DNA from: Streptomyces sp. TG1A-60
GTDB taxonomy: Bacteria; Actinomycetota; Actinomycetes; Streptomycetales; Streptomycetaceae
Reading direction: 5' to 3'
DNA length: 64,000 nt
Assembly (NCBI RefSeq): GCF_037201975.1
Contig: NZ_CP147520.1
Coordinates: 5,332,001 to 5,396,000, forward strand
The position numbers were made by a program, and so were the translations under genes. The notes under the pieces were generated by a model. That model was not told where the DNA came from, ran no database searches, and saw only the letters and a program-made list of their open reading frames with translations. Below, piece by piece: positions 11,372 through 28,505 of the stretch (positions are counted from its first letter, which is position 1; each line of letters begins with the position of its first letter).

Positions 11372-11500
11372 TCACGCTTCCCGTTCGGGACGCGGCCCCA
11401 GCAAGGCGATGAACGAGGCCCAGCTGGCCCGTGAGAGGGCAGGGCGGGGCCGTGGGGGTTCCTTGGAGTCACGGACGGGGCCGGCCAACTCCTCGACCAC
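11372..11500 (-). pseudogene. Remnant of a DUF397-domain gene (C-terminal end)
   Basis: The minus strand encodes VVEELAGPVRDSKEPPRPRP followed by ALSRASWASFIALL and a stop at 11372. This matches the C-terminal half of DUF397 proteins, whose hallmark is VRDSKdP followed by F..aaWaaF. The N-terminal half, with its Trp-x-x-Ser and Cys-Val-Glu motifs, is missing from all three frames upstream, and no good start or ribosome site is present. DUF397 genes normally sit beside XRE-family regulators; none is here. I read it as a decayed remnant. Confidence 0.5.
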
Positions 11501-11683
11501 GCGGTCGACATACTCGCCGACCGCCGGGCGACCGCCCCACGACTCCGTTTCCTGCCGGCCCGGATGGTTGGGCTGTTCGTCCGAGAAGGGAACGCGCGTA
11601 CAACTTTCGGCCGTCCTTGCGAGTCGACTGGTGTGGACGCGCCGCCGGCGTGCTCCTGTCGTTCCAGGGGATGGGAAGGTTTC

Positions 11684-13152: not shown

Positions 13153-13899
13153 CTACACCATGCGGACGTGGCTGGTGAGCCGGCCTTCCTCGTAGAGATG
13201 GAACGTCAGACCGACAGGGCCGCCGTGGGTCTTCCAGGAGGCGCCCGGGCCTTGTTCCCAGGGCATCAGGGCCGTCGAGGCGATGCTGGGCGCACACAGC
13301 AGCGGGCGCCCAGCGAAGGACGTCGTGGCCGCCGTGTGGGCGTGGCCGCAGAGCACGGCGGCCACGTGTGTGTGGCGTCGGAGCACCTCCGCCAGGGCGT
13401 CCGGTCCGCGCAGTCCGATGCGGTCGATGTACGGCAGGCCGAGCGGCGCGGGCGGATGGTGGAAGGCGACGAAGGCCGGCCGGTCGGGGGCGGCGGCGAG
13501 GGCGTCGTCCAGCCAGTCCAGTGTCACCGGTTCCAGCAGGCCCTCGGACCGGCCGGGTACCGAGGAGTCGCACATCAGCACCCGGACCCCGGCGACGTCC
13601 CGGACCTCGTTGACCGGCGCCGTACCACCGCCGCCGAGGAGCACCTCGCGGTACTGCGCACGGGCGTCGTGGTTGCCCGGGCACAGGAGCACCTCGTGGC
13701 GCTCGTACAGCGGGGCGAGGAGCTCGACGGCCTGGCGGTACTCCGCCACGGTGCCCCGGTCGGCGACGTCTCCGGTGACCAGCACGGCGTCCACCGTGCC
13801 GGGCAGTCCGGTCAGATGGGACACGGCCCGGCGCGTGCGCTCGGCGCTCTCCTCGGTGCCGTCCAGGTGCAGATCGCTGAGGTGGGCCAGTACCGTCAC
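13153..13899 (-). CDS. Calcineurin-like metallophosphoesterase
   Basis: A 248-residue cytoplasmic phosphoesterase, similar in layout to CpdA-type cyclic nucleotide phosphodiesterases. All dimetal motifs are present: HLSDLHLDG (D-x-H), VLVTGDVADRG (GD), LLCPGNHDARAQ (GNHD), FVAFHHPPAP and CGHAHTA (GH-x-H). The GTG at 13899 overlaps the stop of the EamA transporter gene (GTGA), so it is the last, coupled gene of the 13-gene operon. In that context it could remove a phosphate or open a phosphodiester in the pathway product, but a general housekeeping role cannot be excluded. Confidence 0.9.
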   Translation of the reverse strand: MTVLAHLSDLHLDGTEESAERTRRAVSHLTGLPGTVDAVLVTGDVADRGTVAEYRQAVELLAPLYERHEVLLCPGNHDARAQYREVLLGGGGTAPVNEVRDVAGVRVLMCDSSVPGRSEGLLEPVTLDWLDDALAAAPDRPAFVAFHHPPAPLGLPYIDRIGLRGPDALAEVLRRHTHVAAVLCGHAHTAATTSFAGRPLLCAPSIASTALMPWEQGPGASWKTHGGPVGLTFHLYEEGRLTSHVRMV

Positions 13900-14873
13900 G
13901 CCTTCGCCTCCGCCTGGGGCGCCTTGTCCTGTCCGGGCTCCCCGACGTCCCGCCTGCCCGCCCGCCAGCGGGCCCAGGTGCCCAGGCACATGGCCAGGGA
14001 GATCGCGAGGACGCCGTAGAAGGTGTCCTGCGACTGGTGCAGCCGCGGGTCGACGTACTGGATCACGTAGGTGATGACCAGGTTCGTCCCGAACAGCATG
14101 GAGACCGTGATCGGCTCGGTCCGTACGATGCCCTGCTGGAGCAGGTACAGCGAGATGATCACGCCGACGAGGCTGATGGCGAGGATCGCGCCGACGTTGC
14201 CCGGGGAGTACGGGCCGAAGCTGCCGCGCACCACGAGGATGACGAAGGTCGTGACGATCAGGGCCACGAACCTGGAGGCCATCATCTGCCGCACCGACAT
14301 CCCCGCGTCGCCGAGCCGCTTCGTGTAGTAGGTCACTCCCGACAGCGAGATGGTGGTCAGCACGCACATCACGATGCCGAAGACCAGCTGCCGGGTCGGC
14401 ACATCCCCGATGGCCGACTCCCCATTGGAGGCCGTGACCAGCAAGTACGCCATGGCGACGATCATCGCTCCGGCCGCGACCAGTTCGAGCGGGAGTGCCT
14501 TCGTGCCGGGCCGGAGCTTGAAGCCGAGTGCGATGGTGACGGCCGGGCCCAGGCCGATGATCATCGAGTTGGCCATGGCCGGTTCGAAGACGGTGAACGC
14601 GTACAGCACCGCGATCCAGCAGACCGCGGTGGAGACGTTGAGCATCACCACGTCGGCGAGGCAGCGTTTCACCACGACCCTCAGCCCGCGCTTGTCGCGC
14701 AGGGTGAAGAAGTAGAAGGCCTGGGCCACCACGAAGGAGTGGAAGGCGATGAACTCCGGTGAGAGATCCTGGACCAGGGCGCCCTCGAACACCGACTTGG
14801 TCGAGTTGATGAGGCAGTAGCCCAGCACCAGCAGGGGACCGGCGGCCAGCGCGAGGCGGCGGCTAGACGACAT
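13896..14873 (-). CDS. EamA/DMT-superfamily membrane transporter
   Basis: A 325-residue integral membrane protein with about ten predicted transmembrane helices in two repeats of five, the layout of drug/metabolite exporters. Examples are the first helix (LALAAGPLLVLGYCLI), AVCWIAVLYAFTVFEPAMAN, SMIIGLGPAVTIALGF, FVALIVTTFVILVV and GVLAISLAMCLGTWARW. The C-terminal tail is cytosolic and charged. Its start overlaps the upstream ATP-grasp gene by 11 bases, and its stop overlaps the phosphoesterase start. As an operon member it is the best candidate for exporting the pathway product. Confidence 0.9.
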   Translation of the reverse strand: MSSSRRLALAAGPLLVLGYCLINSTKSVFEGALVQDLSPEFIAFHSFVVAQAFYFFTLRDKRGLRVVVKRCLADVVMLNVSTAVCWIAVLYAFTVFEPAMANSMIIGLGPAVTIALGFKLRPGTKALPLELVAAGAMIVAMAYLLVTASNGESAIGDVPTRQLVFGIVMCVLTTISLSGVTYYTKRLGDAGMSVRQMMASRFVALIVTTFVILVVRGSFGPYSPGNVGAILAISLVGVIISLYLLQQGIVRTEPITVSMLFGTNLVITYVIQYVDPRLHQSQDTFYGVLAISLAMCLGTWARWRAGRRDVGEPGQDKAPQAEAKA

Positions 14874-16122
14874 CGTAGAACCCCTCGCCGTCCAGGTAAC
14901 GGGCCGTCATGTAGTCGTGTGTGACAACGCCCTCCACCTCGTGCAGGAGGTGCACGAGCATCGGGTACGTGAGGTCGTTGACCGTCCGCGAGATCTCCTC
15001 GCCAGGCCGCACCTTCAACAGGACGTCGTGGAAGCTCTCCAGCGCGCGCAGGTCCGCCATCTTCGGCAGACCGACGAGCTTGCCCGCCTCGGGGGCGATC
15101 ATGTTGACGCAGACCGCGTGCCGGGAGACCTCGTACTCGGTGTGCCTGCGTGCCTCGAAGGCCTCCGGGTCCGTGTACGCCAGCACCGTCCACTCCAGCT
15201 GGCTCTCGCCGATCGCCGCCCGGGTCAGCAGGGGGAGCATGGCGCCGCACACCCGGGCGCCGGTCTCGACCAGCCGGGGGCCCTGCGGGGTCAGTTTCAG
15301 CTCGGTGTGGGCCGGTCCGTTGCGGATGCCGAGCGCGTCCAGCACCGAGAACGCGTACTCCGTCAGCAGGTCCTGCTCCGGCCCCCGGCGAACCATCAGT
15401 GCCGACCCGCCGAGCAGGTCGCGTACGCCGTTTACCCCCAGATGCTGGGTCTTCCACACGTCGCACACGTAGTGCTCGCCGTCCAGGCTCACCGTGTTGA
15501 CGTAGTACTCGGCGCCCACGAGGTACTCCTGGGCGACCACGGCGTCGTTGCGCAGCCCGAGCGCGCTATCCGCGCCGACGAGCGCTTCGAAGGCGGCCCG
15601 TACCTCACCGGCCGTGCCGCAGAATGACACTCCGTCGTTGAGCGCGCTGCGGACCGGCTTGAGGACCACGGTGCGGTCGTCCTCGCCGTACCAGTCCAGC
15701 AGCGTTGCCAGATCGGTGGCCAGGATCTGGTCGGCGGCGGGCACCCCGGCGGCCTTGACGGTCTCCATCATGCGGAACTTGTCCCGCCGGGCGGTGCTCA
15801 GCGCGGTGCCGTTGGTCCGCAGCCCCAGCGCCTCGCTGAGCGCGTCGGCCAGCTCGACACCGATCTCCGCCCCGGGCAGCAGTGCGACCGGGGCGTACGG
15901 GGCGACGGCGGCCAGCGTCCGAGCCGTGTCGCCGCGGTGCACCACGGTGGCGAGGAAGTCGCCCGGCCGGAACGACGAGCCGAAGACGTCTGGCGGCTGC
16001 TCCAGGCTCTGCACGTGCAGGCAGTCGTAACCGGCGTCGTGGAAGAGGGGTGCGAGGTGGCTGGCGGTGGAGTAGGCGTCGACTATCGCGACGACCGGCC
16101 GGTGGCTCTGAGGGGTACTCAC
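14863..16122 (-). CDS. ATP-grasp carboxylate-amine ligase-like protein
   Basis: A 419-residue ATP-grasp enzyme of the type that activates a carboxylate as acyl phosphate and joins it to an amine. The start GTG (16122; VSTPQSHRPVVAIVDAYST) is preceded by AAAGGAA. Recognisable are the N-terminal Rossmann-like domain (VVAIVDAYSTASHLAPLF), the ATP-binding core with DRTVVLKPVRSALNDGVSFC, VVAQEYLVGAEYYVNTVS, and the late Mg-binding region GPAHTELKLTPQGPRLVETG followed by ARVCGAM. It resembles ligases in natural-product clusters that append amino acids (BacD/carnosine-synthase-like). It sits in the large operon, so it likely couples an amino acid or similar unit to the pathway intermediate. The substrate is unknown. 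Confidence 0.9.
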   Translation of the reverse strand: MSTPQSHRPVVAIVDAYSTASHLAPLFHDAGYDCLHVQSLEQPPDVFGSSFRPGDFLATVVHRGDTARTLAAVAPYAPVALLPGAEIGVELADALSEALGLRTNGTALSTARRDKFRMMETVKAAGVPAADQILATDLATLLDWYGEDDRTVVLKPVRSALNDGVSFCGTAGEVRAAFEALVGADSALGLRNDAVVAQEYLVGAEYYVNTVSLDGEHYVCDVWKTQHLGVNGVRDLLGGSALMVRRGPEQDLLTEYAFSVLDALGIRNGPAHTELKLTPQGPRLVETGARVCGAMLPLLTRAAIGESQLEWTVLAYTDPEAFEARRHTEYEVSRHAVCVNMIAPEAGKLVGLPKMADLRALESFHDVLLKVRPGEEISRTVNDLTYPMLVHLLHEVEGVVTHDYMTARYLDGEGFYDVV

Positions 16123-16210
16123 GCTGGGGGTTCCTTTACCTGTGGGGCGGGGGTGGAGCGGAGGGGTGACGGTGACACGGACGGCGGCGGCTCTGCGGCT
16201 ACGGGGCTGG

Positions 16211-17560
16211 TCAGCCCGCCCTGGCGTCCACAGGTGACTTCGCGTCACCCCTGTCCGGTGCCTGCGGTACGAATGCGCTGTCCGCGTCGAACGTCCCCCG
16301 GGAAACGGCCCGTTCCAGCCACCACCCGGCGATCTGCGAGGTGATGACCGCGGTGAGCACCAGGGTCGTGAAGAGCGACGCGTCGACGATCCCCGCGTCG
16401 AACGACACCGTGGCCAGCACGATGCCCGGGCCGCCCCGTGCGTTCAGCGCGACCGCGAGATCGAGCGACTCGCTCTTCGGCCGGTCCGAGAGCCGGGCCC
16501 CGGCGTACGCGCTCGTGGCCTTCGCCAGGCAGGCCACCAGGATGAATCCGGCGGTGAACCACAGGTCGAAGGAGTGCACCAGATCCAGCTTGAGGCCGAC
16601 CGTCGCGAAATAGACGGGGATGAAGAACCCCGCGGCGAAACCGCGCAGCTGGCTCATGGAGCCGCCCTGCGCGCTCTCGCCGGTCATGCCGGACAGCAGC
16701 CCCACGACGAACGCGCCGAACATGGGAGCGACGCCCAGGAACACACAGCTCGCGGACACTGCCAGGAGCACAGCCATGCGTACGGCCACCGTGCCCGGCG
16801 GACGCTCGGCCGCGCCGGCCGTACCGCCCGCTCGGCGCCGCAGCGCCATGGCCACCAGCGTCATCAGCCCGAAGAAGGCCACCGAGGCCACCGAGTGGTA
16901 GACGGCGGAGGCGTTGGCCGACGTGACGCCCAGGGTGTGGGCAAGTCCGAAGCCGCCCTCCTCGCCGCCCGCGACCATGCCGAGCGCCACGGAGAGGACC
17001 ACGTTCAGGATCACGTCCTCGACCACCGCGACCGACAGCACCACCCGGGCGAACCGGGTCCTGATGATGCGCAGGTCGAGCATGATCCGAGAGATCACCG
17101 GGATGCTGGTCACGGCGATCGCGCAGGCCAGGACCAGGGTGAGCGCGGAGACGTTGCCGGCCGGTCCGAGGAGGCTCTCGGTGCCGACGGCTCTGACGGC
17201 CAGCAGGCCGATCCCGAAGGGCACGGCCATACCGGTCAGGGCGATCATCGCGACGGACCGGCCGTCCTGCCGGGAGAAGACCCTGCGCATCTCCGCCCCC
17301 GCCGTGAACATCAGCAGGAGCATCCCGAGCTGGTAGACCAGCATGGTTCCGGAAGCCACCGGCCCCTCGTCGGGGAACAGCCAGGACTCGGCCCGGGGGA
17401 GCACCTGACCCAGCACCGTCGGCCCCAGCAGCAGCCCGCCGAGGATCTCACCGATCACGGGCGGCTGCCGGAACCGGGCGAAGAGCCTGCCCATGCCGTG
17501 CGCCGCGAACAGCAGGAGGGCGAGTGCCGCGAGGACACGGAAGAGTTCAGTCTGGGACAC
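16211..17560 (-). CDS. Cation/proton antiporter (CPA2/KefB-like)
   Basis: A 449-residue membrane protein of the CPA2 monovalent cation:proton antiporter family with 12-13 predicted helices. Typical marks are RQPPVIGEILGGLLLGPTVL near the N-terminus, GMLLLMFTAGAEMRRVF, CAIAVTSIPVISRIMLDL, the buried acidic pair in VLSVAVVEDVILNVVL and ALNARGGPGIVLATVSFD. It lacks the C-terminal TrkA-N/RCK domain of potassium-regulated members. The GTG start at 17560 overlaps the preceding gene by 14 bases. Antiporters appear in antibiotic clusters as proton-coupled efflux or pH-homeostasis components; here the substrate is unknown. Confidence 0.9.
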   Translation of the reverse strand: MSQTELFRVLAALALLLFAAHGMGRLFARFRQPPVIGEILGGLLLGPTVLGQVLPRAESWLFPDEGPVASGTMLVYQLGMLLLMFTAGAEMRRVFSRQDGRSVAMIALTGMAVPFGIGLLAVRAVGTESLLGPAGNVSALTLVLACAIAVTSIPVISRIMLDLRIIRTRFARVVLSVAVVEDVILNVVLSVALGMVAGGEEGGFGLAHTLGVTSANASAVYHSVASVAFFGLMTLVAMALRRRAGGTAGAAERPPGTVAVRMAVLLAVSASCVFLGVAPMFGAFVVGLLSGMTGESAQGGSMSQLRGFAAGFFIPVYFATVGLKLDLVHSFDLWFTAGFILVACLAKATSAYAGARLSDRPKSESLDLAVALNARGGPGIVLATVSFDAGIVDASLFTTLVLTAVITSQIAGWWLERAVSRGTFDADSAFVPQAPDRGDAKSPVDARAG

Positions 17561-18074
17561 GGGCGTCCAGGCTGAACCGGGAGGCCACGGCGGAGGTGGA
17601 GCCCGTGTACTTGCCGTCGTAGCCGGCCGGCTCGCCCTGCATCGACCAGAACGCCAGCTTCCCGACCACCATCCCGGGATAGACCCGCACCGGGTGCGCG
17701 ACCTTCATCTCCAGCGTCCACGGAAAGACCGCTCCGCTGTGCCCGAGCGGGGCCGAGAACTGGATCCAGATGCCGAGGGTCGAGGCGGACCGGCAGGCGT
17801 ACAGGGTGGCCGCGTAGTGCGGGCTGCCCATCGCCTCCATGGTGCCGCCGAGGTAGAAGCGGCCCGGCTCGAGGACCATTCCCCCGGGACCCATCTTCAG
17901 GTGCTCGGCCTTCGGCGGCTCGAAGCAGTCGATCGCGTCCTGCTCGTACCGGAGGATGTCGTCGGCGAGCCGGAAGCCGTAGCTGTTCGGCTCCAGGCGC
18001 TCCGGGTCGAAGTCGTCGATGTGGATGCGCCCGGCGCGTACCTCGGACAGGATCTCGGGTCCGCTCAGAATCAC
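17547..18074 (-). CDS. dCTP deaminase-like protein, stand-alone paralog
   Basis: A 175-residue member of the dCTP deaminase/dUTPase trimer superfamily, starting MILSGPEILSEVRAGRIHID, with LEPNSYGFRL, GRFYLGGTME and the C-terminal GKYTGSTSAVASR. Compared by eye with classical dCTP deaminases, E122 (in PWTLEM) fills the catalytic Glu position. The usual RSSxxR motif, however, reads CRSAST at 94-99, so the phosphate-binding Arg residues at 94 and 99 are lost. The fusion protein at 25631-28141 shows the reverse pattern. ATG overlaps the upstream kinase stop (ATGA), and its 3' end overlaps the antiporter start. Function is inferred as deamination or binding of a cytidine-type nucleotide. Confidence 0.88.
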   Translation of the reverse strand: MILSGPEILSEVRAGRIHIDDFDPERLEPNSYGFRLADDILRYEQDAIDCFEPPKAEHLKMGPGGMVLEPGRFYLGGTMEAMGSPHYAATLYACRSASTLGIWIQFSAPLGHSGAVFPWTLEMKVAHPVRVYPGMVVGKLAFWSMQGEPAGYDGKYTGSTSAVASRFSLDARVPD

Positions 18075-18631
18075 AGCCAGCTCCCCAGCAGCGCGTGGAC
18101 GGCCGACCGGTACGCCATCAGGTCCGCCCCGTTGTCGATCACGGCGTCCGGGGTGACCAGGCCGATCTCCCGGGTCGAGCGGTCGGCGCGGGACGGGTCC
18201 CCCCGGTCCTCCAGCCGCCGCAGGCGCACCTCTTCGTCGCAGGTGACGCGCAGGACGCGGAAGCCCTGCCCGCGCAGGGCCGGGGCGTCCACGTGCGGGT
18301 CGCGCAGGTCGTCGTTGACGACCAGGTCGGCGTCGGTGCCCGCCAGACGGGCGGTGAAGTCCGCGGCAAGCGAGTCGGGGCGGATGCGCCGCATCGCGTC
18401 GGCGAGCGCCTCCATGAGGACCTGGTCCTGCGCGCCGTCGTGGAGCTGCGCGCCGGCCTTCCGGTACACCTGCTCCTGGAGGTCGTACAACGGCTTGGCG
18501 AGCTTGATCCGGGCGTGGGTCAGGCCCTTGTCCCGGGCGTACTCCTCCATGAGGGAGGCACAGGTGGACTTGCCCGCACCCGCCAGGCCTATGACGGATA
18601 TCCGCAGCGGGGATCGTCGGCCGGCCGTCAT
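18071..18631 (-). CDS. P-loop nucleotide kinase, deoxynucleoside-monophosphate-kinase-like
   Basis: A 186-residue P-loop kinase. Walker A is VIGLAGAGKSTCASLM (about residues 11-26), followed by ARIKLAKPLYDLQEQVYRKA, which resembles the substrate region of phage-type deoxynucleoside-monophosphate kinases and dephospho-CoA kinases. LVVNDDLRDPHVDAP and VLRVTCDEEVRLRRLEDRGD supply the Walker-B-like strand and LID Arg residues. Start ATG (18631) overlaps the stop of the upstream HprK-like gene, and its own stop overlaps the next start. Within the operon it probably phosphorylates a nucleotide or nucleoside-phosphate intermediate; the exact substrate is unclear. Confidence 0.85.
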   Translation of the reverse strand: MTAGRRSPLRISVIGLAGAGKSTCASLMEEYARDKGLTHARIKLAKPLYDLQEQVYRKAGAQLHDGAQDQVLMEALADAMRRIRPDSLAADFTARLAGTDADLVVNDDLRDPHVDAPALRGQGFRVLRVTCDEEVRLRRLEDRGDPSRADRSTREIGLVTPDAVIDNGADLMAYRSAVHALLGSWL

Positions 18632-19701
18632 CGTGCGTTCTCCTTGCCGGTGGTCCGGGCCAGGACGGCGTCCGGATCGACGTCGAGAGTGCCCCGCAGC
18701 CGCACCATGTCCACGCTGCCGAGGACCGTGCGCAGTTCGGCCAGGCCCCGGTAGAACGCCGTGTAGTCGGGGACCAGGTAGGTCTGCCAGGTGAAGAACG
18801 TGGTGTCGACCTGGCGGTCCACGATCTTGTTCAGGTGCGCCCAGCGCTCGTTGCCGTCCGTCAGGTGCCGCACGGTCAGCGGCTCCCCGGGTACGACCTC
18901 GGGCAGCAGCAGCGCGGCCAGCCGCTTGGGCTCTGCCGTGAACTCCGCGCCGAGCCACGACTCGAAGACCTCGGGGTCCATCAGGATTTTGTGGCCGGGC
19001 TCGTACGTGTCGATCAGGGCGTCCACACCGTCGCGGACCATCTTCTCCAGACGCGCGTCGGCCCGGATCGTGCCCACCCCCACGTACGGGTAGTCGCGCC
19101 AGGGGTGGACGAGGATCTCGCCGTCCTCGATCGTGCAGAACAGCTTGTCCCCGGTGAAGTACTTCCAGCCCGGCCGGCGCAGCGCCGACAGCAGGGTGGT
19201 GGTCTTGCCCGCGCCCTTGGGACCGGCGATGATCACGGCCTCGCCGTCCCGGTGCAGGCCGGAGGCGTGCAGCACCACCGTGCCGAGGTCCTCCTCGTGC
19301 CGGATGACGAGATCGCGCACGAAGTCGAGGATCTGCACCGTGGACCGCTCGGTGATCCGGACCAGGAAGGTGCTGTCCTTCGCCGCGTCGGCCGGGGCGT
19401 CGAGCAGCGTGTCCCGGTTGACGTACCGCCGGCGGCCGTCGGTGTCGACGAGGTGCGCGTCGAAGTTGAACTCGGCGGCGTTGCTGCGCCGGATGACCGA
19501 CTGCGGCAGCTCCCACACCTCGGGCGCGACGTCCGTGTCCGGGTCGTAGGAGTGTACGACGACCGAGAAGGTGACCTCGCCGGCCGGGGCCGGGGCCATC
19601 AGGTGCCGGAAGAAACGGCGGACGGGTTCGAACACGCCCTCCGCGTCATCGGCCACGTCGAACCGCACGGTGGTGTGCAGGAAGTTCAGGTAGACAGTCA
19701 T
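18628..19701 (-). CDS. HprK-like P-loop protein
   Basis: A 357-residue protein with a central Walker A, VIIAGPKGAGKTTTLLSA (about 157-174), in the arrangement HASGLHRDGEAVIIAG before it and TGDKLFCTIEDGEILVHPWR after it. This matches HPr kinase/phosphorylase-like proteins of natural-product and RiPP clusters rather than true HprK, because the organism-wide HPr context and the capping motif are not evident. The N-terminal 130 residues (MTVYLNFLHTTVRFDVADDA) form a separate domain also seen in those relatives. It probably phosphorylates a small molecule or protein in the pathway. Its ATG is 17 bases after the SRPBCC stop. Confidence 0.8.
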   Translation of the reverse strand: MTVYLNFLHTTVRFDVADDAEGVFEPVRRFFRHLMAPAPAGEVTFSVVVHSYDPDTDVAPEVWELPQSVIRRSNAAEFNFDAHLVDTDGRRRYVNRDTLLDAPADAAKDSTFLVRITERSTVQILDFVRDLVIRHEEDLGTVVLHASGLHRDGEAVIIAGPKGAGKTTTLLSALRRPGWKYFTGDKLFCTIEDGEILVHPWRDYPYVGVGTIRADARLEKMVRDGVDALIDTYEPGHKILMDPEVFESWLGAEFTAEPKRLAALLLPEVVPGEPLTVRHLTDGNERWAHLNKIVDRQVDTTFFTWQTYLVPDYTAFYRGLAELRTVLGSVDMVRLRGTLDVDPDAVLARTTGKENAR

Positions 19702-19718
19702 GCTCAGGCGCTCTCCAT

Positions 19719-20159
19719 CTACGCGGCGCAGGCCGTGAGGGCCCGCAGCAGCTCGTCGGCGTGGGCTTGGAAGGACTGGGACCAGATGGGGTCGAGCAAC
19801 GGCGCGAGGCCGTCCACGCCCAGTTCGTAGGCGAGGACGAACGAGACCCGGGTACCGGCGCCGGCCGTGGTCAGGGACCACTCGCCCGACAGCCTTTCCA
19901 GGTCACCCGCCGTCTGCTCGAAGCACAGCCGCAGCCCCGGCCCGGCTGCCTCCCGCTGCCTCCAGGTCACCTCGCTGCCGTTGAGCAGAACGGTCCACTC
20001 GTGGATGCGGAAAGTCCTGTCCGGGTCGGACACCGGTCGGACGGCCACCACGTGCCGGGCCCGGGACGCGACGAGCGCACTGTCCTTGACCCGCGCCCAC
20101 ACCTCCTCCGGGGTACGCCCCTCAATCAGCGTGTCTGCCTGAATCTCAGGCACGGGCAC
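19719..20159 (-). CDS. SRPBCC (START-like) domain protein
   Basis: A 146-residue single-domain protein of the SRPBCC/polyketide-cyclase superfamily. It starts at GTG 20159 (VPVEIQ-like N-terminus) and has ADTLIEGRTPEEVWARVKDS, RTFRIHEWTVLLNGSEVTWR, LERLSGEWSLTTAGAGTRVS and the amphipathic C-terminal helix ending DELLRALTACAA. These proteins have a hydrophobic ligand cavity and act as cyclases, aromatases or carriers. In this operon it could bind a lipophilic or aromatic moiety. No catalytic residues can be assigned. Confidence 0.83.
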   Translation of the reverse strand: MPVPEIQADTLIEGRTPEEVWARVKDSALVASRARHVVAVRPVSDPDRTFRIHEWTVLLNGSEVTWRQREAAGPGLRLCFEQTAGDLERLSGEWSLTTAGAGTRVSFVLAYELGVDGLAPLLDPIWSQSFQAHADELLRALTACAA

Positions 20160-20183
20160 CTCACTTCCGTGTCGCGGACGCTT

Positions 20184-20798
20184 TCAGGCGGCCTTCATGA
20201 GCGGGGCCAGGAACCCGATGTCGAGTCCGGCCGTCCGGGCGAGCTCCGCCCAGATCCGCAGGGTCCGCAGCATGTCCCGCTGCCCCTCGGCGACCAGCCG
20301 GTCGGGCAGCTCACCGGGGAAGCCGTCCAGCAGCCGCTCCCACAGCACGTAGATCTCCTCCACCGCGCAGCCGCCGCCACCGAACTCCTCGTGCAGGCCG
20401 AAGACGCCGGCCAGCTCGGGGCCGGTCGCGTCGACCACCTCGCGCATCCCGTACTCGAGCGCGAGCGCCAGGCAGTGCGCGTCGTCCACCGCGACCCGCC
20501 CCGCCAGACGCTGGTCGATGTCGAGCAGCTGCTCCAGGAAGCGCAGCTTCGCCGCCTGCTGCATCTGCGGCTGCTCGGTGCCCCCTTCGAGGTCCTCGAC
20601 GTACGCCCGCCCTTCCGCCAGCATCAGCCAGGCGGCCTGCACCCAGACCTCGACGGCCTGCGGGCCCGCCATGACATGCCCGGCCCGTACCGAAGGAAAG
20701 GCTGTGAGCTCCCGGGCGCCGCGCGATGTACGCGGCGCCCGGCCGTGGTCCTCGGTCATGTCCGACCAGCCCCTGTCTGTCGTGGTGTGTGCTGTCAT
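20184..20798 (-). CDS. Operon protein of unknown function
   Basis: A 204-residue, mainly alpha-helical cytoplasmic protein that I do not recognise. The start ATG at 20798 overlaps the stop of the upstream gene (ATGA), which supports coupling. The first 35 residues are polar and probably disordered. Helical segments follow (AVEVWVQAAWLMLAEGRAYV, QQAAKLRFLEQLLDIDQRLA, VDDAHCLALALEYGMREVV, DMLRTLRIWAELARTAGLD). A short GGGG loop (EEFGGGGCAVEEIY) is the only striking feature. No signal peptide or membrane helix is evident. Being inside the operon, it presumably supports the pathway, perhaps as a partner of the fusion upstream. Confidence 0.8.
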   Translation of the reverse strand: MTAHTTTDRGWSDMTEDHGRAPRTSRGARELTAFPSVRAGHVMAGPQAVEVWVQAAWLMLAEGRAYVEDLEGGTEQPQMQQAAKLRFLEQLLDIDQRLAGRVAVDDAHCLALALEYGMREVVDATGPELAGVFGLHEEFGGGGCAVEEIYVLWERLLDGFPGELPDRLVAEGQRDMLRTLRIWAELARTAGLDIGFLAPLMKAA

Positions 20799-23602
20799 CG
20801 CCCGGCATCCCGGCCCTGGTAGCCGATCCGCAGCCGGGCCACGCCCGCCCGCAGCGCACGCAGCAGGGAGGCGGCGGCCGGCGCGTCGAGCGCGGACAGC
20901 TCGTCCAGGCCGACCGGGCCACGGGTGAACGGCAGATCCGATTCGGTGCCGACCCCGGGCAGCACGACACCGCTGTCCGCCCCCAGCACAGCCGCCGCAC
21001 CGGGCAGGAAGGCGCGCACCCGGCCGGTGATCTCGACTTCCACCGTGACGGCCCGGGCGGTGCCGGTGGCCCGTACCGCCTCCAGGGCCAGCTCCGCGTA
21101 CGGTGCCGCCACCGGCTCACCGGCCAGGGCCGGGCCGAGCAAGGTGTGCACGTCCTTGCGGAGCCTTTCCAGGCCGACGGCCACCGTCCGGAGGCTCTCG
21201 TCGTGCCATCCGCCCTCAGTCATCAGCCGCGTCCAGCGCAGTACGTACCACTTGCGGGTGGTGTACACGTCGCCGTGGTGCGAGAGCAGGCCGTCCATCA
21301 GGTGCAGCAGCACGTTGTACGCGTAGCCCACACGCCCCCGTGTCTCGCCCGCGGTCTCGGCCAGCGTGGTGTGCACGACCTGCTCGATGGCGGTGTGCAG
21401 GGCGGCCCGGCTCCAGACCCGGCTGAGGGAGGGCAGCCACCCCAGGTACGGCGCGGAGCCGTCCATCGTGATGCCGTTGACGATGCGCTCGGTCTGCTTG
21501 CGGCGTGGTTCGCGCTGCTTGTCCCACGCGCGGAAGCCCGCCACGGTCCGCTCCGCCGGGAGGTCGGCGAGCCGGTCCAGTTCGTCGAGATTCGAGGCGA
21601 GTTCGGCCTCGCTGAAGGACACGACCTCCAGGTGGTGACCGTTCTCGAAGATCTTGGTGGATATCCGGGGGCCGTCGATCGCGGCCTCCTGGATCCGGAT
21701 GAAGTCCAGGTCGCTGGTCGGGTTGGCCAGTCCGTGCACGGGGGAACTGGTCAGCAGCAGCAGACCCGCGCCGACGCGTTCGCGCATCAGCTCCGACAGC
21801 CACACGGGGTCCAGGTCCCGGCTCCCCAGGAAGGCCGTCACCTGCGCGTGGCGGCGAGCTGTCAGCTTGTCGGGGGAAAGGCCATGGGGAAAGCCGGACG
21901 GCATATCCATCATCTTTTCGTCGGTCGGTTCGAGAGGGCCGTTGCGGTACAGGGCCGCGGGGCCCGGGCCCAGGCCCAGCTGGCCGAGAACCAGGGCGGC
22001 CGGCAGGGTGTTGTCGACAGAACCCGCCGCGGTGCCGGATCCGATACCGGGGCCGACCGCCGCGTGGACCGCGTGGAGCCTGCTGTCCCCGGTGTTGACC
22101 ACATGGGCCCCGGTCTTGGCGACCCGCCGCACCGTCGGGCCCTCCCCGAGCAGCTGGGCGCTCGGCTGGTAGTCGTCGGCCAGGGCGACATAAGCCACCC
22201 CCGCGTCCGCCTGCGCACCGGCGAGTGGCTCCCCGTCGCGGTCGAGGAAGCCGGCCACCACGGGGCGGCCCGTCTCGGGGTCGGTGATCGAGGACAGGAC
22301 GGCCCGCGCGCGCGACATGACCTGGCGGACCCGCACGGGATCGTCGGCCGCGCCCTCGGCGACCCACAGGGAGCCGTTGTTCGCCGGGTGGTAGAAGACC
22401 TGGGAACCGGCCGGGTCCAGGGCCCCGTCGGCATCGCGCGCCGCCAGGCCCGCGCGCACCAACTGGTCGTTCAGATACACCAGATGGGTGCTGCCGACCA
22501 TGCCGTGGTCGGCGCCGAGCACCACGGTGTCCTCCGCGCCGGCCCGGTCCAGGACCCGCCCGAGAATCGCGTCCGACCAGGTGTAGCAGCGCCGGATGTA
22601 CGACCACACCCGCGCGGACATGTCCGGGCGGTAGGCCGCGCTCCGCTCGTCGCACCAGCCCAGGAACTCATGGCCCACGTCGTCGGTCATCGGCAGGTAG
22701 ACGACCACCAGATCGGCGTCGTGCGTCTCCAGGACCGCGTCGGTCGCGGCGCCGAAGGACCGGGCCACGCACTCCACGGAGGAGAGGAAGACCTCCTCGG
22801 CCGAGCCGTCCCCGCCTTCGGCCAGCCGGGGACCGAACGCCGCCCGGCGGTAGAGCGGACCCACCCCTTCGCCCGCGAAAGGCGGGCACTGCGCCAAGCG
22901 GTGCAGCATCTTCGGGTTACGCCCTGCGGTACGCGCCCGCCAGACCCCCGTGTGCACCAGCATCAGCCGCTCGGCCACCCGGACACAACGCATCCACGTG
23001 CCGTGGTACCGGTCCAGGCCGAAGGGCTGCCACCCGCCGTCCGGAGAGAGCAGCAGGTGCTCGCCGGCATCGACCCGCACCCGCTCCGATCCGTCCGGGC
23101 TCCGCTCGACGGCGGCATCCACGCGGTACGCGCCGATGTCCCAGTGCTGTAATCCGGCACCCGGTTCCAGCATGTGCAGTGCGTGCCGGGTCCGCCGGCC
23201 GCTGTACGCCTCCACCGCGCCGTCGACGTGCGGTCCGACGCGGCCGTCGGCTCCGAAGACCCAGGGAACGTGGACCAGCGCGCTGGTCAGGTCGTTCTCG
23301 GACATCGCCTCCCACACCGGCGGAGTGGCCGGGAATCCCGGCGCGAAGCCGCTGACCTGGCTGGCGACCCCCTGCCCCGCACCCGGCACGGTGAATCCGG
23401 TGACCTGGTGTTCGGCCGGCCAGGTTCCGGTGAACAAGGTCGCGAGGGAGGGCGGCGTCTGGCAGTTGGGGCGCGCGGGGCGTGCCGCGCCGAAGACACC
23501 GCGCTCCCGGATGCGTGTGACGGCGGGCAGCGCGCCCTCACGTTCCAGTCGGTCCACGACCCAGTGCGCCCCGGCGTCCCAGACCACCCAGTACACGGTC
23601 AC
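20795..23602 (-). CDS. Alkaline-phosphatase-superfamily phosphodiesterase fused to a nucleotidyltransferase-like domain
   Basis: A 935-residue two-part protein. The N-terminal 550 residues belong to the alkaline phosphatase superfamily (nucleotide pyrophosphatase/phosphodiesterase type): WVVWDAGAHW with a metal Asp near residue 9, nucleophile region NCQTPPSLATLFTG (T49), MTDDVGHEF (D307/D308/H311) and GADHGMVG (D365/H366). From about 600 a second module carries SSPVHGLANPTSDLDFIRI (D631, D633), the G...SDxD signature of polymerase-beta-type nucleotidyltransferases, then a helical C-terminus. It starts at GTG 23602, overlapping the HAD gene stop. Codon 151 is a TTA, so translation should depend on the bldA tRNA. 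I know of no described protein with this domain pair; the substrate is unknown. Confidence 0.85.
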   Translation of the reverse strand: MTVYWVVWDAGAHWVVDRLEREGALPAVTRIRERGVFGAARPARPNCQTPPSLATLFTGTWPAEHQVTGFTVPGAGQGVASQVSGFAPGFPATPPVWEAMSENDLTSALVHVPWVFGADGRVGPHVDGAVEAYSGRRTRHALHMLEPGAGLQHWDIGAYRVDAAVERSPDGSERVRVDAGEHLLLSPDGGWQPFGLDRYHGTWMRCVRVAERLMLVHTGVWRARTAGRNPKMLHRLAQCPPFAGEGVGPLYRRAAFGPRLAEGGDGSAEEVFLSSVECVARSFGAATDAVLETHDADLVVVYLPMTDDVGHEFLGWCDERSAAYRPDMSARVWSYIRRCYTWSDAILGRVLDRAGAEDTVVLGADHGMVGSTHLVYLNDQLVRAGLAARDADGALDPAGSQVFYHPANNGSLWVAEGAADDPVRVRQVMSRARAVLSSITDPETGRPVVAGFLDRDGEPLAGAQADAGVAYVALADDYQPSAQLLGEGPTVRRVAKTGAHVVNTGDSRLHAVHAAVGPGIGSGTAAGSVDNTLPAALVLGQLGLGPGPAALYRNGPLEPTDEKMMDMPSGFPHGLSPDKLTARRHAQVTAFLGSRDLDPVWLSELMRERVGAGLLLLTSSPVHGLANPTSDLDFIRIQEAAIDGPRISTKIFENGHHLEVVSFSEAELASNLDELDRLADLPAERTVAGFRAWDKQREPRRKQTERIVNGITMDGSAPYLGWLPSLSRVWSRAALHTAIEQVVHTTLAETAGETRGRVGYAYNVLLHLMDGLLSHHGDVYTTRKWYVLRWTRLMTEGGWHDESLRTVAVGLERLRKDVHTLLGPALAGEPVAAPYAELALEAVRATGTARAVTVEVEITGRVRAFLPGAAAVLGADSGVVLPGVGTESDLPFTRGPVGLDELSALDAPAAASLLRALRAGVARLRIGYQGRDAGR

Positions 23603-24381
23603 GCGACGCCCCACTCCCGGACGAGCCGCGGCAGTCCCGCCACGGAGTCCAGCTCGTGGGTGGCCTGCCCGGTCAGACCTTCCGCCCGCTGGTCCTCGTA
23701 CTTGCCCGTCCGCACCTGGACGGTCGGGCACCCGGCGGCGCGGCCGCCCGTGATGTCCGTCGTGGCGTCGTCACCGACGACCACGCACGCGGCGGCCGGC
23801 ACACCGAGGGACGCGGCCGCGAGTTCGAAGAAGTCGGTGGCCGGCTTCCCCAGCACCCTCGCCTCCGTTCCGGAGGCGTACGTGACCGCCGCGACCACCG
23901 CGCCGGTGTCCAGGTGGTCCCCGTCGGGCCGCTTGAAGTAGCGGCCCGTCTGCAGGGCGAGCAGCTGTGCCCCGTCCCGTACGGCCCTGAACGCCCCGTC
24001 GAGCGAGGCGTAGTCCAGGGTGTCCCGGCAGTCGCCGATCAGCACATGGCTGTACGGGGGTTCGCCGGTCAGGGTCGGCAGCACCTCGCGCAGTTCACGC
24101 GAGACCAGCGGGTAGGTGCGGGCGCCCGCGGCGGTCAGCAGCCGTGCGGCCGCCACCACCGGTGTGAACAGTTCCTCCGCCGCCACCGTGAGCCCGTACC
24201 CGGCCAGTTCCGCCTGGATCCGCTCGGCGGGCTTGGAGTCGGTGTTGGTCAGGAAGCGCAGTCCCACCCCAAGCTCACGCAGGGCGTCCACCGCCTCCGC
24301 CGCGCCGTCGACCACGGCGCCCCGGGCGTACAGGGTTCCCTCCAGGTCGAGCAGGACCGCTCGCACCGCAGCGTCCGTCAT
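23599..24381 (-). CDS. HAD-superfamily phosphatase (subfamily IIA, NagD-like)
   Basis: A 260-residue haloacid dehalogenase-fold hydrolase of the IIA (NagD/phosphoglycolate phosphatase-like) type. Motif I is VLLDLEGTLYARG, where the second Asp of DxD is replaced by Glu (DLE), as happens in LHPP-like members. Motif II is FLTNTDSKP, the C2 cap lies between, and motif III/IV is LGKPATDFFELAAASL and VVVGDDATTDITGGRAAGC. Start ATG at 24381 shares one base with the upstream stop (TGATG). In the operon it probably dephosphorylates a late intermediate. Confidence 0.9.
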   Translation of the reverse strand: MTDAAVRAVLLDLEGTLYARGAVVDGAAEAVDALRELGVGLRFLTNTDSKPAERIQAELAGYGLTVAAEELFTPVVAAARLLTAAGARTYPLVSRELREVLPTLTGEPPYSHVLIGDCRDTLDYASLDGAFRAVRDGAQLLALQTGRYFKRPDGDHLDTGAVVAAVTYASGTEARVLGKPATDFFELAAASLGVPAAACVVVGDDATTDITGGRAAGCPTVQVRTGKYEDQRAEGLTGQATHELDSVAGLPRLVREWGVA

Positions 24382-25634
24382 CAGCCGACCTCTCGCGCCA
24401 GCTCGGGGCGGGCCGCGACGGCGTCCTTGAGGAAGGTGCGCTTGGAGTAGAAACCGCGCTGGTCGTTGAGGCCGCGCGCCCGCAGGAACGCCTCCAGCCA
24501 GACAGCGATCTCGTCCATCTCGGCCAGCACCGCGGCCGGGTCGGGCTCGACGGTGACCCGACTGCGCAGGTACTCCAGCTCGCACTGGTTGAGCGTCACC
24601 TCGCGGGCCTCGACCAGGCTGCAGTGGTCGAAGAAGACACCGTAGACGTGCCCGGTGCGCACCGACTCGAAGTTGACGTCGTAGCGGACCCGGCGGAAGG
24701 ACGGCAGGCGGACGGCCTCGACCTTCAGCTCCTGGAGGATGTGGCGCTCGAAGCCGCCGTCGTCTGCCAGGTCGAGCCCGTACGTGTGGCTCTCCCTGCG
24801 GTCGAAGGTGTCCTCGGCATACCACTTCCGCTTGAGCAGGTGCTTGCCGTCGGTGGTGGGGATGAAGGAGGCGTAGCCGAGTTCCGCCTCGGTGGGGCCG
24901 GTGACCTCGAAGAGGTGGTTGAGGTAGTCCCAGGCCTGGAACTCGTCACGGTATTCCATGATGTAGTCCGGGAGTTCGGCGTTCAGCAGGCTCTGGTACA
25001 GCTCGACCGTCAGCGTCCAGACGTCCACCGGCGCAGTCAGCGTGTACTTGTACTCGAGTTCCTTCCCGCTGAAGCACTTGCGGTAGTAACGCTGGTGGTT
25101 GTTGAGGAAGAGGAAGCTCTCCGCGTGCAGCCGGACCGCGTCCGGCAGCCACCCCAGCGCCTCGACGCCGGCCGTGGCCACGGCCGTCGGTGTGACGCGG
25201 ATGAAGCAGGCGTCCTCGTCCAGGAAGCGGATCTGGCTGTGCACATGGGCCCGGTCACCGTCCGCGGTGACGTAGAACAGCGGCACGACCGGCCCGGCGG
25301 GCAGACCGGTGACCTCGGTCACCGCCTCGCGCAGGGCGTGGCCCACCAGCATGCCGGGGAAGAGCTCGTCGCCGCGTGCCTTCGCCGTGTGGTGACGGGT
25401 CCCGTCGACGGTACGGACCGACAGCTCCAGTGGCCCGAGACGGTCCCAGCGCAGGACGACCGTGTTGCTCGGGAAGTGCTGTTCCACCGGGGCGCCGAGT
25501 TCCACGAGGACCACGGGGTCGGTGCCCGCGAGCGGGGCCGTGCCGTTGAGGAGGTGCAGCCCGCCCAGGACCAGCCAGGACCGCCGCACGGCCGGAGCGG
25601 TCGCGCACGCGGTGGGTGTGGTGGTGTCGCTCAC
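24381..25634 (-). CDS. CYTH-like (triphosphate tunnel) protein of unknown function
   Basis: A 417-residue protein that is not in a family I can name with certainty. Residues 192-196 read ELEYK, the ExExK signature that opens CYTH/triphosphate tunnel enzymes. It is preceded by an N-terminal region of about 185 residues (LVLGGLHLLNGTAPLAGTDP onward) and followed by basic strands such as KHLLKRKWYAEDTFDRRE, RLPSFRRVRYDVNFES and CELEYLRSRVTVEPDP, spaced as in the tunnel barrel. CYTH enzymes hydrolyse or bind triphosphates. GTG 25634 overlaps the upstream stop (GTGA), and its own stop overlaps the HAD start. The CYTH call is an inference from motif spacing. Confidence 0.75.
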   Translation of the reverse strand: MSDTTTPTACATAPAVRRSWLVLGGLHLLNGTAPLAGTDPVVLVELGAPVEQHFPSNTVVLRWDRLGPLELSVRTVDGTRHHTAKARGDELFPGMLVGHALREAVTEVTGLPAGPVVPLFYVTADGDRAHVHSQIRFLDEDACFIRVTPTAVATAGVEALGWLPDAVRLHAESFLFLNNHQRYYRKCFSGKELEYKYTLTAPVDVWTLTVELYQSLLNAELPDYIMEYRDEFQAWDYLNHLFEVTGPTEAELGYASFIPTTDGKHLLKRKWYAEDTFDRRESHTYGLDLADDGGFERHILQELKVEAVRLPSFRRVRYDVNFESVRTGHVYGVFFDHCSLVEAREVTLNQCELEYLRSRVTVEPDPAAVLAEMDEIAVWLEAFLRARGLNDQRGFYSKRTFLKDAVAARPELAREVG

Positions 25635-28141
25635 GGCCGTTCTCCCTTGTGGCTGGTCGTCGCGACAGCGCCGTCGCTGATCACCGCCTCGGCCCCTGAG
25701 ATCCCGGCGGCGGTCACTGCGGGGATCCCGGCCTCGCGCAGCAGGATCGCCAGGTGCCCCAGCGCGGAGCCCTGGTCGAAGACGAATCCGGCGACGTGGT
25801 CGAGGAGGACGGAGAGCACCGCGTACGGCCGCGCGGCGCTGATCACGGGCTTCTCGTCGTACGACGTGACCAGATCGAGGATCCGGGCGAGGCCTTCGTG
25901 CTCGGTGACGTCCTGGGACTTGTCGATGCTCACGGCCGGGCCGATGGAGAGGCGGCGCAGGGTCGCGTCGTCGTCCAGGCGCAGGAGCGGCCCCCGGGCC
26001 GTGCCGGGTGAGATGCAGACCTCTCCCAGCGCGACCGAGACGGTGTCGTCGCCGCCGAGCACCGAGTAGTCGACGAAGTACAGCGTGCCGCGGTCGAAGA
26101 CCCATTCGAGGGTCACCGGCCCGTGCCTGGCGTGCATGACCGCCGTGAAGCGGGCCAGTTCGTCGAGGTGAGGGCGCAGAACTTCCCCGCCGGCGGGGCA
26201 GGTCACGTTCGCCGTGTCGTCGAATCCCGCCGCCACGTCCGTGACGATGACGGCCTCACCGCCCGCGGTGCCGCGGTTCAGGGCCATCAAGCCCTCGTCG
26301 GTGTACTCGACGATGAGTCCGCTCTCGCCCGCCTCGCGGGAGATCACGCCGAGCTCGCCGCGTATGAAGTCGCGCACGATCACCGTGTGCAGGCTCGTGC
26401 CGTCCGCGCTCGCTCCGGTGGTGACGGCGAGCTGGCGCGGCACCTCCTCCTTGGGCACCACGATCTGGCGCAGGGTGTCGCCGAAGTCCAGTACGCACTC
26501 GTCGGTGCCGCCCGAGAGCGTGCCGCGCAGGGCGGATCCGCCGTCGGCGCCGTGCAGGCCCAGGCCGTTGAAGCGGATGACCCACCCCGCCCCGGTGGAC
26601 ACTCCGTGTTCGTGGGCCAGCCGGTGCGCGGGTCCGCGCTTGGCGGCGTAGCCGCTGTGGACGGCGGCCACCGCACCGAGGCCGAAGCCGGCGGGGAGCT
26701 CGTCGACGTACAGCCGGTGCGCCTCGACGACCGGTTCGACGGAGCCGTGGGACTCGCGGGACGCGGTGAGCGGGCGTACCTGGACGAGGTGGACGCCGTC
26801 GGCGTCGGCCGCCCACTCGATGTCCACGTCCTGCTCGCGGCTCTCGCGCAGGCGCCGGGCCAGGCCCACGACGTCAAGGAGGACCTCGTGTTCGGCTGCA
26901 CCGCGCTGGGCCGGTCCTTCGGCCAGCTCGGCCGAGTCGGTGCGTCGCGGCACGGCGACACCGGCGACGAGCTCGTCGGCGAGACCCTCGACGTACTCGA
27001 CGGACACCCGGTCGCCGTCGCCGTCGAGGCCGGTGAACGCGACGCCGGCGAAGGACGGGTGGACGAGCTTCTGCACGATCACGGCAAGGCGGGGGGCCGG
27101 GGAGAAGTGGCCGGCCCGGATGCGGGCGGCGACGGCCGGGGCCTCGTAGTACGAGCGCCAGCACTGCTCGACGGCCTCGATCACGGCGTCGACGCCGCTG
27201 ACACCTAGGACGGACTGGTGGATCCCGGCGAGACTGGAGCCCTCGGTGTCCTCGTCCAGACCCGAGGACCGCACGGCCAGTTCGGTCTCCGTGTCCGCGG
27301 AGCGCGGGAACATCTCGTGCACCCGGGCGGCCAGCAGCTTCCGGACCTGCGCGGGAACACGGATCTCGGCGCCGATCTTCTGGATCTTGGCCACGGAGTC
27401 GGTGAAGAAGGCGCCGACAGTGGCCTTCAGGTCCCCGAAGGCGTCGGCGAGTGCGGCGTTCTGCTCGGCGGTGAGCGCGTCGGTGAACTCGCCGGCGGGC
27501 ACGCAGAAGGCGGGCGGCACACGGAAGTCGTGGCTGGAGGCGGCGAGCTGGGAGAACTTGGGGCCCACCTCGCTCGCGTCGAAGCTCGCACCGAGCCCGG
27601 GGAAGCGCTGGCGGGCGAACTGCTTGTCGAAGTCGATGTGGATGTCGCTGGAACGGGGGCCGACGGACCCCTGGTACTTGCCGTCGTAGAGGACGATCTC
27701 GCCCTGCGGGCGCCACCACATCATCTGGCCGATGTTGATTCCGGGATACACCCGGACCCGGTTCATGGTGTAGAGCTGCAGTGTCCACTGGCCGGTGTAA
27801 CCGATGTCCCCCAGACTGGCGGACAGGTTGATGAAGATACCGAGCCGGGCGACCGAGGAGCGCGCCGCGAAGGTGGGCGCGTAGTGCTCGCTGCCCAGCA
27901 CCTCGATGGTGTGGGCGAGATAGAGCCGGCCCGGTTCCAGGACATAACCGTCGTCCGGGATCTCGATCTCTTCGAAGTCGTTCGTACGCCGGGCATCCAG
28001 CGGCATGCCCTGGTAGGTCCGCAGGGTCTTGCCGAGACGGAAGTTGTAGCTGTTGGGGTTGACCTGCTCCGGCGTGAACGGCTCGATGGTGATACGGCCA
28101 TTCGTCCGTTCTCGCTCGATTTCGGCACCGGTCAGAATCAT
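25631..28141 (-). CDS. Fusion of dCTP deaminase-like domain and PEP-synthase-like phosphotransferase
   Basis: An 836-residue two-module protein and the first gene of the operon. Residues 1-180 are a dCTP deaminase-like domain (NSYNFRLGKTLRTYQGMPL, ARSSVARLG at 93-101, YDGKYQGSVGPRSS) that keeps both Arg residues of RSSxxR but has Gln122 (WTLQL) where the catalytic Glu should be. From about 200 it resembles the ATP-binding part of PEP synthase/rifampin phosphotransferase: VRSSGLDEDTEGSSLAG (290-306) and DVDIEWAADADGVHLVQVRP. The C-terminus is the swivelling phosphohistidine domain with GSALGHLAILLREAGIPAV, His796 being the carrier. It probably moves a phosphate from ATP to an unknown acceptor, with the deaminase module binding a nucleotide. 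Confidence 0.88.
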   Translation of the reverse strand: MILTGAEIERERTNGRITIEPFTPEQVNPNSYNFRLGKTLRTYQGMPLDARRTNDFEEIEIPDDGYVLEPGRLYLAHTIEVLGSEHYAPTFAARSSVARLGIFINLSASLGDIGYTGQWTLQLYTMNRVRVYPGINIGQMMWWRPQGEIVLYDGKYQGSVGPRSSDIHIDFDKQFARQRFPGLGASFDASEVGPKFSQLAASSHDFRVPPAFCVPAGEFTDALTAEQNAALADAFGDLKATVGAFFTDSVAKIQKIGAEIRVPAQVRKLLAARVHEMFPRSADTETELAVRSSGLDEDTEGSSLAGIHQSVLGVSGVDAVIEAVEQCWRSYYEAPAVAARIRAGHFSPAPRLAVIVQKLVHPSFAGVAFTGLDGDGDRVSVEYVEGLADELVAGVAVPRRTDSAELAEGPAQRGAAEHEVLLDVVGLARRLRESREQDVDIEWAADADGVHLVQVRPLTASRESHGSVEPVVEAHRLYVDELPAGFGLGAVAAVHSGYAAKRGPAHRLAHEHGVSTGAGWVIRFNGLGLHGADGGSALRGTLSGGTDECVLDFGDTLRQIVVPKEEVPRQLAVTTGASADGTSLHTVIVRDFIRGELGVISREAGESGLIVEYTDEGLMALNRGTAGGEAVIVTDVAAGFDDTANVTCPAGGEVLRPHLDELARFTAVMHARHGPVTLEWVFDRGTLYFVDYSVLGGDDTVSVALGEVCISPGTARGPLLRLDDDATLRRLSIGPAVSIDKSQDVTEHEGLARILDLVTSYDEKPVISAARPYAVLSVLLDHVAGFVFDQGSALGHLAILLREAGIPAVTAAGISGAEAVISDGAVATTSHKGERP

Positions 28142-28505
28142 GGGACGTCCCGTTCGCTCGTTCTCGACAGAAGGTGTGAAGAGCCTCGGATGGCCGACGC
28201 GAAGACCGGCCGAAGGAGCGTCAGCCCCAGTCGGTGCCGAAGGCGCCGCCCGCGCTCGTGTCCGCGCCGCCGCAGGTCCCGATCACTCGGCCAAGGCCCG
28301 GCCGACGAGAACCGTTTCACGTAAAACGTTCATGAATCCGCCTTGCCTGTGTGTTGAATCTGGTTCATCTGCCTACCGCGGACACTCCTTGCGGGAATGG
28401 GCGGCGGGATGAATCACCATGCCAGATCTTGCAGACGTATGAGCGGGCAGAATGGATCAGCAAGCTGCATGGCAGCTTGCTGCCACGCCACGTAGAGGGG
28501 GAAAG
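28142..28505. promoter_or_regulatory. Divergent control region of the 13-gene operon and its LuxR-type regulator
   Basis: This 364-base gap holds the promoters of the operon (leftward) and regulator (rightward). It has lower GC than the surroundings between about 28310 and 28500. Visible elements are a perfect 9-base inverted repeat (28460-28480), three copies of TGAATC (28333-28338, 28355-28360, 28410-28415) and an imperfect repeat around CGTTTCACGTAAAACG (28311-28329). I cannot place -10/-35 boxes with confidence. Confidence 0.6.
28460..28480. repeat. Perfect 9-base inverted repeat before the regulator gene
   Basis: GCAAGCTGC (28460-28468) and GCAGCTTGC (28472-28480) flank ATG. The repeat ends 25 bases before the regulator start codon, so it could be an operator for autoregulation or a hairpin in the 5' leader of the mRNA. 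Confidence 0.75.

Follow-up and report, generated by a model that had tools for sequence, protein, structure and literature searches.

Introduction

Which small molecule could a bacterium build from two proteins resembling deoxycytidine triphosphate (dCTP) deaminases, a phosphotransferase-like domain, phosphatases, kinase-like proteins and an ATP-grasp ligase? This question is raised by a 13-gene operon of Streptomyces sp. TG1A-60, located in a stretch of 64,000 nucleotides of its genome (NZ_CP147520.1, positions 5,332,001 to 5,396,000; hereafter the window), which is available as a single contig of 7.83 Mb. The operon occupies window positions 13153-28141, and its genes, numbered g1 to g13 (Table 1), all lie on the minus strand. 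Nine of the 12 gene junctions overlap and the remaining three show gaps of 24, 17 and 88 nucleotides, in agreement with an initial annotation that had described thirteen minus-strand genes mostly joined by overlaps. The analysis points to a real, conserved and rare biosynthetic locus; its product is, with moderate confidence, an antimetabolite containing a phosphorus-nitrogen (P-N) bond.

Conservation and distribution of the core

The operon was compared across 15 loci in 14 Streptomyces genomes, located through g4 or g5; one genome, G786, carries two clusters (G786a and G786b). Locus L021 was omitted from the counts because it and G939 (AP-93) are one contig, L019 and L020 are identical with the contigs G162 and G180, and a locus from Embleya (L036) stands outside the 15. 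The genes g1, g2 and g4-g9 are present at all 15 loci, and g3 at 13, being missing from G212 and G786b. The phosphodiesterase part of g4 in L018 was missed by gene calling, which listed 14 copies, and was recovered by tblastn. The earlier proposal of one conserved operon is therefore upheld by co-occurrence across genomes: the core is not scattered. A limit is set by g2, whose homologues also occur on plasmids (approximately 46-50% identity); the two examined both lack the core. These two lie on Streptomyces plasmids, each beside a divergent NUDIX gene (L083 17983-19194, 50%; L086 18013-19179, 45.5%).

The family of g5, DUF6031, was found in eight of 391 genomes of an order sample and in seven of 392 of a genus sample that overlaps it, the genome under study being counted in both. 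Among the 396 genomes of a phylum sample, only the genome under study carries it. Protein searches with g2 and g5 also returned, among the best 120 matches, proteins from Micromonospora, Kitasatospora, Nocardia and other actinobacteria.

Around this core, the loci fall into several types. The window type comprises nine loci: the window, G386, S. caeruleatus, JHA26, SirexAA-E, S. meridianus, AP-93, G1007 and G991. A halogenase type is formed by G329 and G266, and there are two desaturase types, G194 with G786a and G212 with G786b. In the four desaturase-type loci, g6 reaches just 31-35% identity, and g5, g6 and DUF6001 stand behind g9 instead of before it. The variable genes include g10 (10 of 15 loci), g12 (nine of 15) and g11, with an orthologue of at least 65% identity at 11 of 15; g13 is found beside the other genes at nine of the 15 and is partial in S. 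meridianus. The scanned proteins of G329 include a tryptophan halogenase, a flavin reductase, a sub-threshold WelO5-like protein and additional ATP-grasp ligases. A polyketide synthase lies near the halogenase-type loci (L030 881-11944; L031 8736-17887).

Protein families of the operon

Most gene names of the initial annotation were borne out by domain scans, which add DUF6001 in g4 and DUF6031 for g5. Two proteins, g1 and g9, resemble dCTP deaminases (Dcd) by fold family (PF22769); both pass the broader Pfam DCD cut-off and, at 80.2 and 51.7 bits, respectively, fall below the NCBIfam dCTP deaminase cut-off of 92.8 bits. In g1, the Dcd domain is followed by an ATP-binding domain and a histidine swivel domain, a layout that is presumably that of rifamycin phosphotransferases, and the swivel histidine is kept at all 15 loci. 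NCBIfam gives partial matches of g1 to rifamycin phosphotransferases, phosphoenolpyruvate (PEP) synthases and prodigiosin ligases, far under the curated cut-offs. Compared with this superfamily, g1 is alike in the two domains just named and differs in its N-terminal Dcd domain and in having no detected PEP-binding domain. Its middle region has no Pfam match, and besides Dcd, Pfam recognizes only PPDK_N and PEP-utilizers, with no PEP-binding or PEP/pyruvate-binding C-terminal domain.

Both the tunnel fold and the ExExK motif, which is the CYTH motif, are present in g2. The resemblance of g7 to HprK-related kinases reaches 36 and 29 bits against NCBIfam cut-offs of 200 and does not place it among them. 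The ligase g11 scores over the cut-off of NCBIfam PRK07206 and under that of the dapdiamide synthase DdaF.

Likeness to phaseolotoxin and other P-N pathways

The content of the operon had initially been regarded as unlike anything described. This view was not sustained, since the genes match the published list of the phaseolotoxin (Pht) cluster of Pseudomonas syringae and P. savastanoi pathovars; no earlier description of the operon itself was found in the literature searched, a search without most subscription journals. The Pht gene table names an ornithine carbamoyltransferase, an ornithine aminotransferase, two desaturases, a HAD gene (phtP), an L-amino acid ligase, two deoxycytidine triphosphate deaminases (phtJ and phtK) and a pyruvate phosphate dikinase, phtL (PMC3927611). 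According to further reports, structural models give PhtA a P-loop, sulfotransferase-like character and PhtB, with low confidence, a CYTH-like one (PMC5453526), phtQ and phtU are ATP-grasp ligases, and phtL is required for phaseolotoxin, with an assumed role in N-P bond formation (PMC4530439). The window shares two Dcd-family genes together with a pyruvate phosphate dikinase (PPDK)/PEP-synthase-like part, as well as HAD, CYTH, P-loop and ATP-grasp proteins, a likeness read from the published gene list and partly from gene order rather than from Pht protein sequences. In contrast to Pht, the Dcd and PPDK-like parts are fused in g1, and the window adds DUF6001/DUF6031, SRPBCC and phosphodiesterase proteins, to which unnamed Pht genes are possibly equivalent.

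The sister loci extend this likeness. In both desaturase types, a fatty-acid desaturase is accompanied by a class III aminotransferase; G194, matched by G786a, adds an ornithine carbamoyltransferase, as in Pht. The G194 order Dcd-desaturase-DUF6001-DUF6031-aminotransferase parallels phtJ/K-desI-phtH-phtG-phtF in reverse, a comparison in which phtG is a hypothetical gene and phtH an annotated desaturase, neither of them matched by sequence.

Two other systems are relevant. Sulphostin, a phosphosulfamate inhibitor of DPP4, is produced by Streptomyces sp. MK251-43F3. According to a 2019 review, phaseolotoxins and sulphostin are the only natural phosphosulfamates, and according to one of 2021, nothing was then known about sulphostin biosynthesis. 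As the other reported natural phosphosulfamate type, it is likewise a Streptomyces product, and its link to the window locus is one of analogy. In the agrocin 84 phosphoramidate pathway, agnD1 and agnD2 are reported phtL homologues (PMC4530439), which makes this pathway alike by published description. The same source, in 2015, called the formation of the N-P bond poorly understood. A Streptomyces operon family with Pht-like content would allow this chemistry to be tested in soil bacteria by gene removal. It would also hint at where the Pht island came from, whose genes have been proposed to be of Gram-positive origin (PMC11278893).

The split Dcd site

The catalytic set of dCTP deaminases consists of an SSxxR motif and a glutamate, and in the Escherichia coli enzyme the glutamate of one subunit works with the serine and arginine of its neighbour. 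At all 15 loci, g1 keeps RSSVAR and carries TLQ, with glutamine in place of the catalytic glutamate, while g9 keeps TLE and has RS[AVT]STLG instead of the SSxAR motif. Neither chain holds the full set at any locus; in contrast to dCTP deaminases, the residues are split between g1 and g9. Given the subunit-sharing site of the E. coli enzyme, all the catalytic residues would come together at one g1-g9 interface.

Tandem Dcd pairs were also found elsewhere. Besides Embleya, 11 records have two Dcd places, and seven pairs were aligned (H34, H39, H41 and H52 being left out); they lie on plasmids of Streptomyces (three), Rhizobium (two), Nocardiopsis and Nonomuraea (L084, L085, L087-L091). In all seven, one partner is changed from E to Q or from E to M. 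The glutamate-bearing partner has a full SSxGR motif in six of the seven; consequently, no composite site is needed there, which weakens the idea that such sites are the rule. Both catalytic elements are retained in two single Dcds. Among the three plasmid pairs and the Embleya locus compared for a kinase neighbour, a g8-like P-loop kinase (36-41% identity) adjoins the three pairs and is present in Embleya too. The clusters around the plasmid pairs are small and also contain methyltransferase, glycosyltransferase or NUDIX genes.

The plasmid of Embleya sp. NBC_00888 carries a divergent Dcd-PPDK gene, a g8-like kinase and a g9-like Dcd (L036 3501-4798, 15001-17281). Some of its frames are apparently broken, and its Dcd residues are split as in the core. 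The genome under study has one more full-length Dcd outside the window. In a proteomic study of SirexAA-E, SACTE_2198, a 'dCTP deaminase', was 2.19-fold up on xylose (PMC12772271). Its tag number places it probably close to the SirexAA-E locus (L017, NC_015953.1 2439781-2462584), so a Dcd of the cluster is possibly expressed.

Target-like gene copies in sister clusters

Several sister clusters carry a copy of a housekeeping enzyme. The carbamoyltransferases of G194 and G786a lie at the same place and are 90.5% identical to each other; against six housekeeping copies of other Streptomyces they reach 41-46%, and SCRTR replaces STRTR. In the G194 genome, the carbamoyltransferase family shows just two members: the cluster copy and a gene whose match pattern suggests an aspartate carbamoyltransferase. 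The copy in the cluster may thus be the sole ornithine enzyme. Ornithine carbamoyltransferase is the reported target of phaseolotoxin.

Three apparent urease subunit genes, common to G212 and G786b, lie upstream of the core. The large subunit was confirmed by PF00449 in both, and the two small ones are presumptive assignments. The cluster large subunit is 93% identical between the two loci and 77-79% identical to four other copies, and a further urease is encoded elsewhere in the genomes of both G212 and G786. Phosphorodiamidates are known urease inhibitors.

The third enzyme is cytidine triphosphate (CTP) synthase. Among the 12 genomes checked, it is duplicated in two, those of AP-93 and S. 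caeruleatus, and both times the additional copy lies in the cluster. In the other ten, G1007 has two extra fragments beside the main copy and nine genomes have one copy. Remnants stand at the same place in JHA26 and S. meridianus, and none were found in the window and four other window-type loci. The housekeeping enzyme was compared in seven of nine genomes, since the copies of the genome under study and of G1007 were not recovered by gene calling. The cluster carbamoyltransferase, urease and CTP synthase are possibly self-resistance copies, and the corresponding enzymes possibly targets of the products. The sister clusters would thereby point to three enzyme targets.

Proposed route and alternative explanations

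The favoured reading, which is probably correct, is a nonribosomal pathway for a small P-N antimetabolite of the phaseolotoxin/sulphostin class, most likely an amino acid or short peptide that bears a phosphosulfamate or another phosphoric amide as its warhead. The route envisaged begins with ATP, which would charge g1 at its swivel histidine; from there the phosphoryl group would pass to an amine. The N-terminus of g1 together with g9, g8, g7, g2 and the nucleotidyltransferase-like g4/g5 would handle a nucleotide-bound or triphosphate-activated intermediate, to be released by the g4 phosphodiesterase, the g3 phosphatase and perhaps g13. An amino acid would be ligated by g11, and the product exported by g10 and g12. 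The initial annotation had foreseen a phosphorylated or nucleotide-derived molecule: its small, probably phosphorylated product with ATP-grasp ligation and export genes stands, whereas a nucleotide-derived product gives way to a phosphosulfamate-type amino-acid antimetabolite as the likelier outcome. A nucleotide carrier or nucleotide product is possible for the window locus.

Several observations weigh against the favoured reading. Domain scans found no ornithine carbamoyltransferase, desaturase, class III/ornithine aminotransferase or amidinotransferase among the 13 window genes; as several Pht features searched for are absent, the locus was not filed as a phaseolotoxin cluster. The same scans found no sulfotransferase or APS-kinase family member, which leaves the sulfur step unexplained. 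Searches with g5 and the desaturase gave no named Pseudomonas protein among the best 120 of 130 and of 579 matches, respectively. Other clusters combine a Dcd pair and a g8-like kinase with no annotated PEP-synthase-like gene in view. Finally, the CTP synthase in the AP-93 cluster and the housekeeping enzyme of that genome share 98% identity, which fits CTP supply as well as resistance.

Some of these points lend weight to a nucleotide-derived antibiotic, a modified pyrimidine nucleotide assembled by the Dcd pair, g8, the phosphodiesterase and the nucleotidyltransferase-like protein, to which g11 would attach an amino acid; the CTP synthase of sister clusters would then supply the substrate or be mimicked by the product. 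Such a pathway would suit the plasmid Dcd pairs with a glutamate-less partner, three of them by a g8-like kinase, in the company of methyltransferases, glycosyltransferases or a uridylyltransferase, and the CTP synthase genes within two window-type clusters with remnants in two others. The sister urease and carbamoyltransferase copies, however, misfit a cytidine product, and the desaturase, aminotransferase and PEP-synthase-like genes have their counterparts in the phaseolotoxin cluster, which makes this alternative unlikely. A narrower form of the favoured reading keeps the same core for a plain phosphoramidate or amino-acid antimetabolite. Since none of the 13 genes was recognized by family as a sulfation gene, the product may be a plain phosphoric amide; nevertheless, the sulfotransferase-like P-loop model of PhtA means that g7 or g8 could fill the sulfation role, and this specific form is considered improbable. 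A nucleotide-pool, stress or defence operon, suggested by Dcd-like, phosphatase and kinase-like proteins that could act on nucleotide pools, is the least credible explanation, with very little probability: the family is rare (eight of 391 genomes), the loci hold transporters, ATP-grasp ligases and exchanged tailoring genes such as the G329 halogenase, and a full-length Dcd exists outside the window.

Beyond the favoured reading lies a bolder proposal, tentative and given somewhat less than an even chance: a modular actinomycete P-N warhead cassette, with one core, varied amino-acid scaffolds directed at ornithine carbamoyltransferase, urease or CTP synthase and a protective copy of the enzyme in each cluster, that would also cover sulphostin. 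In this cassette, a heteromeric Dcd composite site (glutamate from g9, serine and arginine from g1) with its kinase would form a new nucleotide-processing module, used in other pathways too.

Gene organization and neighbouring genes

Table 1. Genes of the operon and two genes upstream of it, in window coordinates (aa, amino acids; HTH, helix-turn-helix)
Feature	Position	Strand	Description
g1	25631..28141	-	836 aa; Dcd domain 1-143, PPDK_N ATP-binding domain 191-399, His swivel domain 779-813 (H796)
g2	24381..25634	-	417 aa; CYTH / triphosphate tunnel metalloenzyme domain, C-terminal
g3	23599..24381	-	260 aa; HAD-IIA family hydrolase
g4	20795..23602	-	935 aa; type I phosphodiesterase/nucleotide pyrophosphatase domain and DUF6001 (nucleotidyltransferase-like motif)
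g5	20184..20798	-	204 aa; DUF6031, predicted model all-helical
g6	19719..20159	-	146 aa; SRPBCC (polyketide cyclase/dehydrase) protein
g7	18628..19701	-	357 aa; P-loop protein, weakly resembling HprK-related kinases
g8	18071..18631	-	186 aa; P-loop nucleotide-kinase-like protein
g9	17547..18074	-	175 aa; Dcd-like, Glu kept, RSASTLG in place of SSxAR motif
g10	16211..17560	-	449 aa; sodium/hydrogen exchanger family antiporter
g11	14863..16122	-	419 aa; ATP-grasp ligase
g12	13896..14873	-	325 aa; EamA-family transporter
g13	13153..13899	-	248 aa; calcineurin-like phosphoesterase
Divergent regulator	28452..29570	+	LuxR-type HTH; homologue at 10 of 15 loci, 35-85% identity
Serine hydrolase	29663..30829	+	beta-lactamase family; homologue at six of nine window-type loci, fragment in S. 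meridianus

At 9560-12649, the operon is neighboured by a gene of the endonuclease I family, one with DUF4180 and another member of the beta-lactamase family. These genes seem to lie outside the cluster, since no homologue occurs at the other 14 loci as fetched. The divergently transcribed LuxR-type protein is probably the pathway regulator. The serine hydrolase next to it possibly belongs to the cluster; as sulphostin inhibits a serine peptidase, a protective or processing role is conceivable for this protein.

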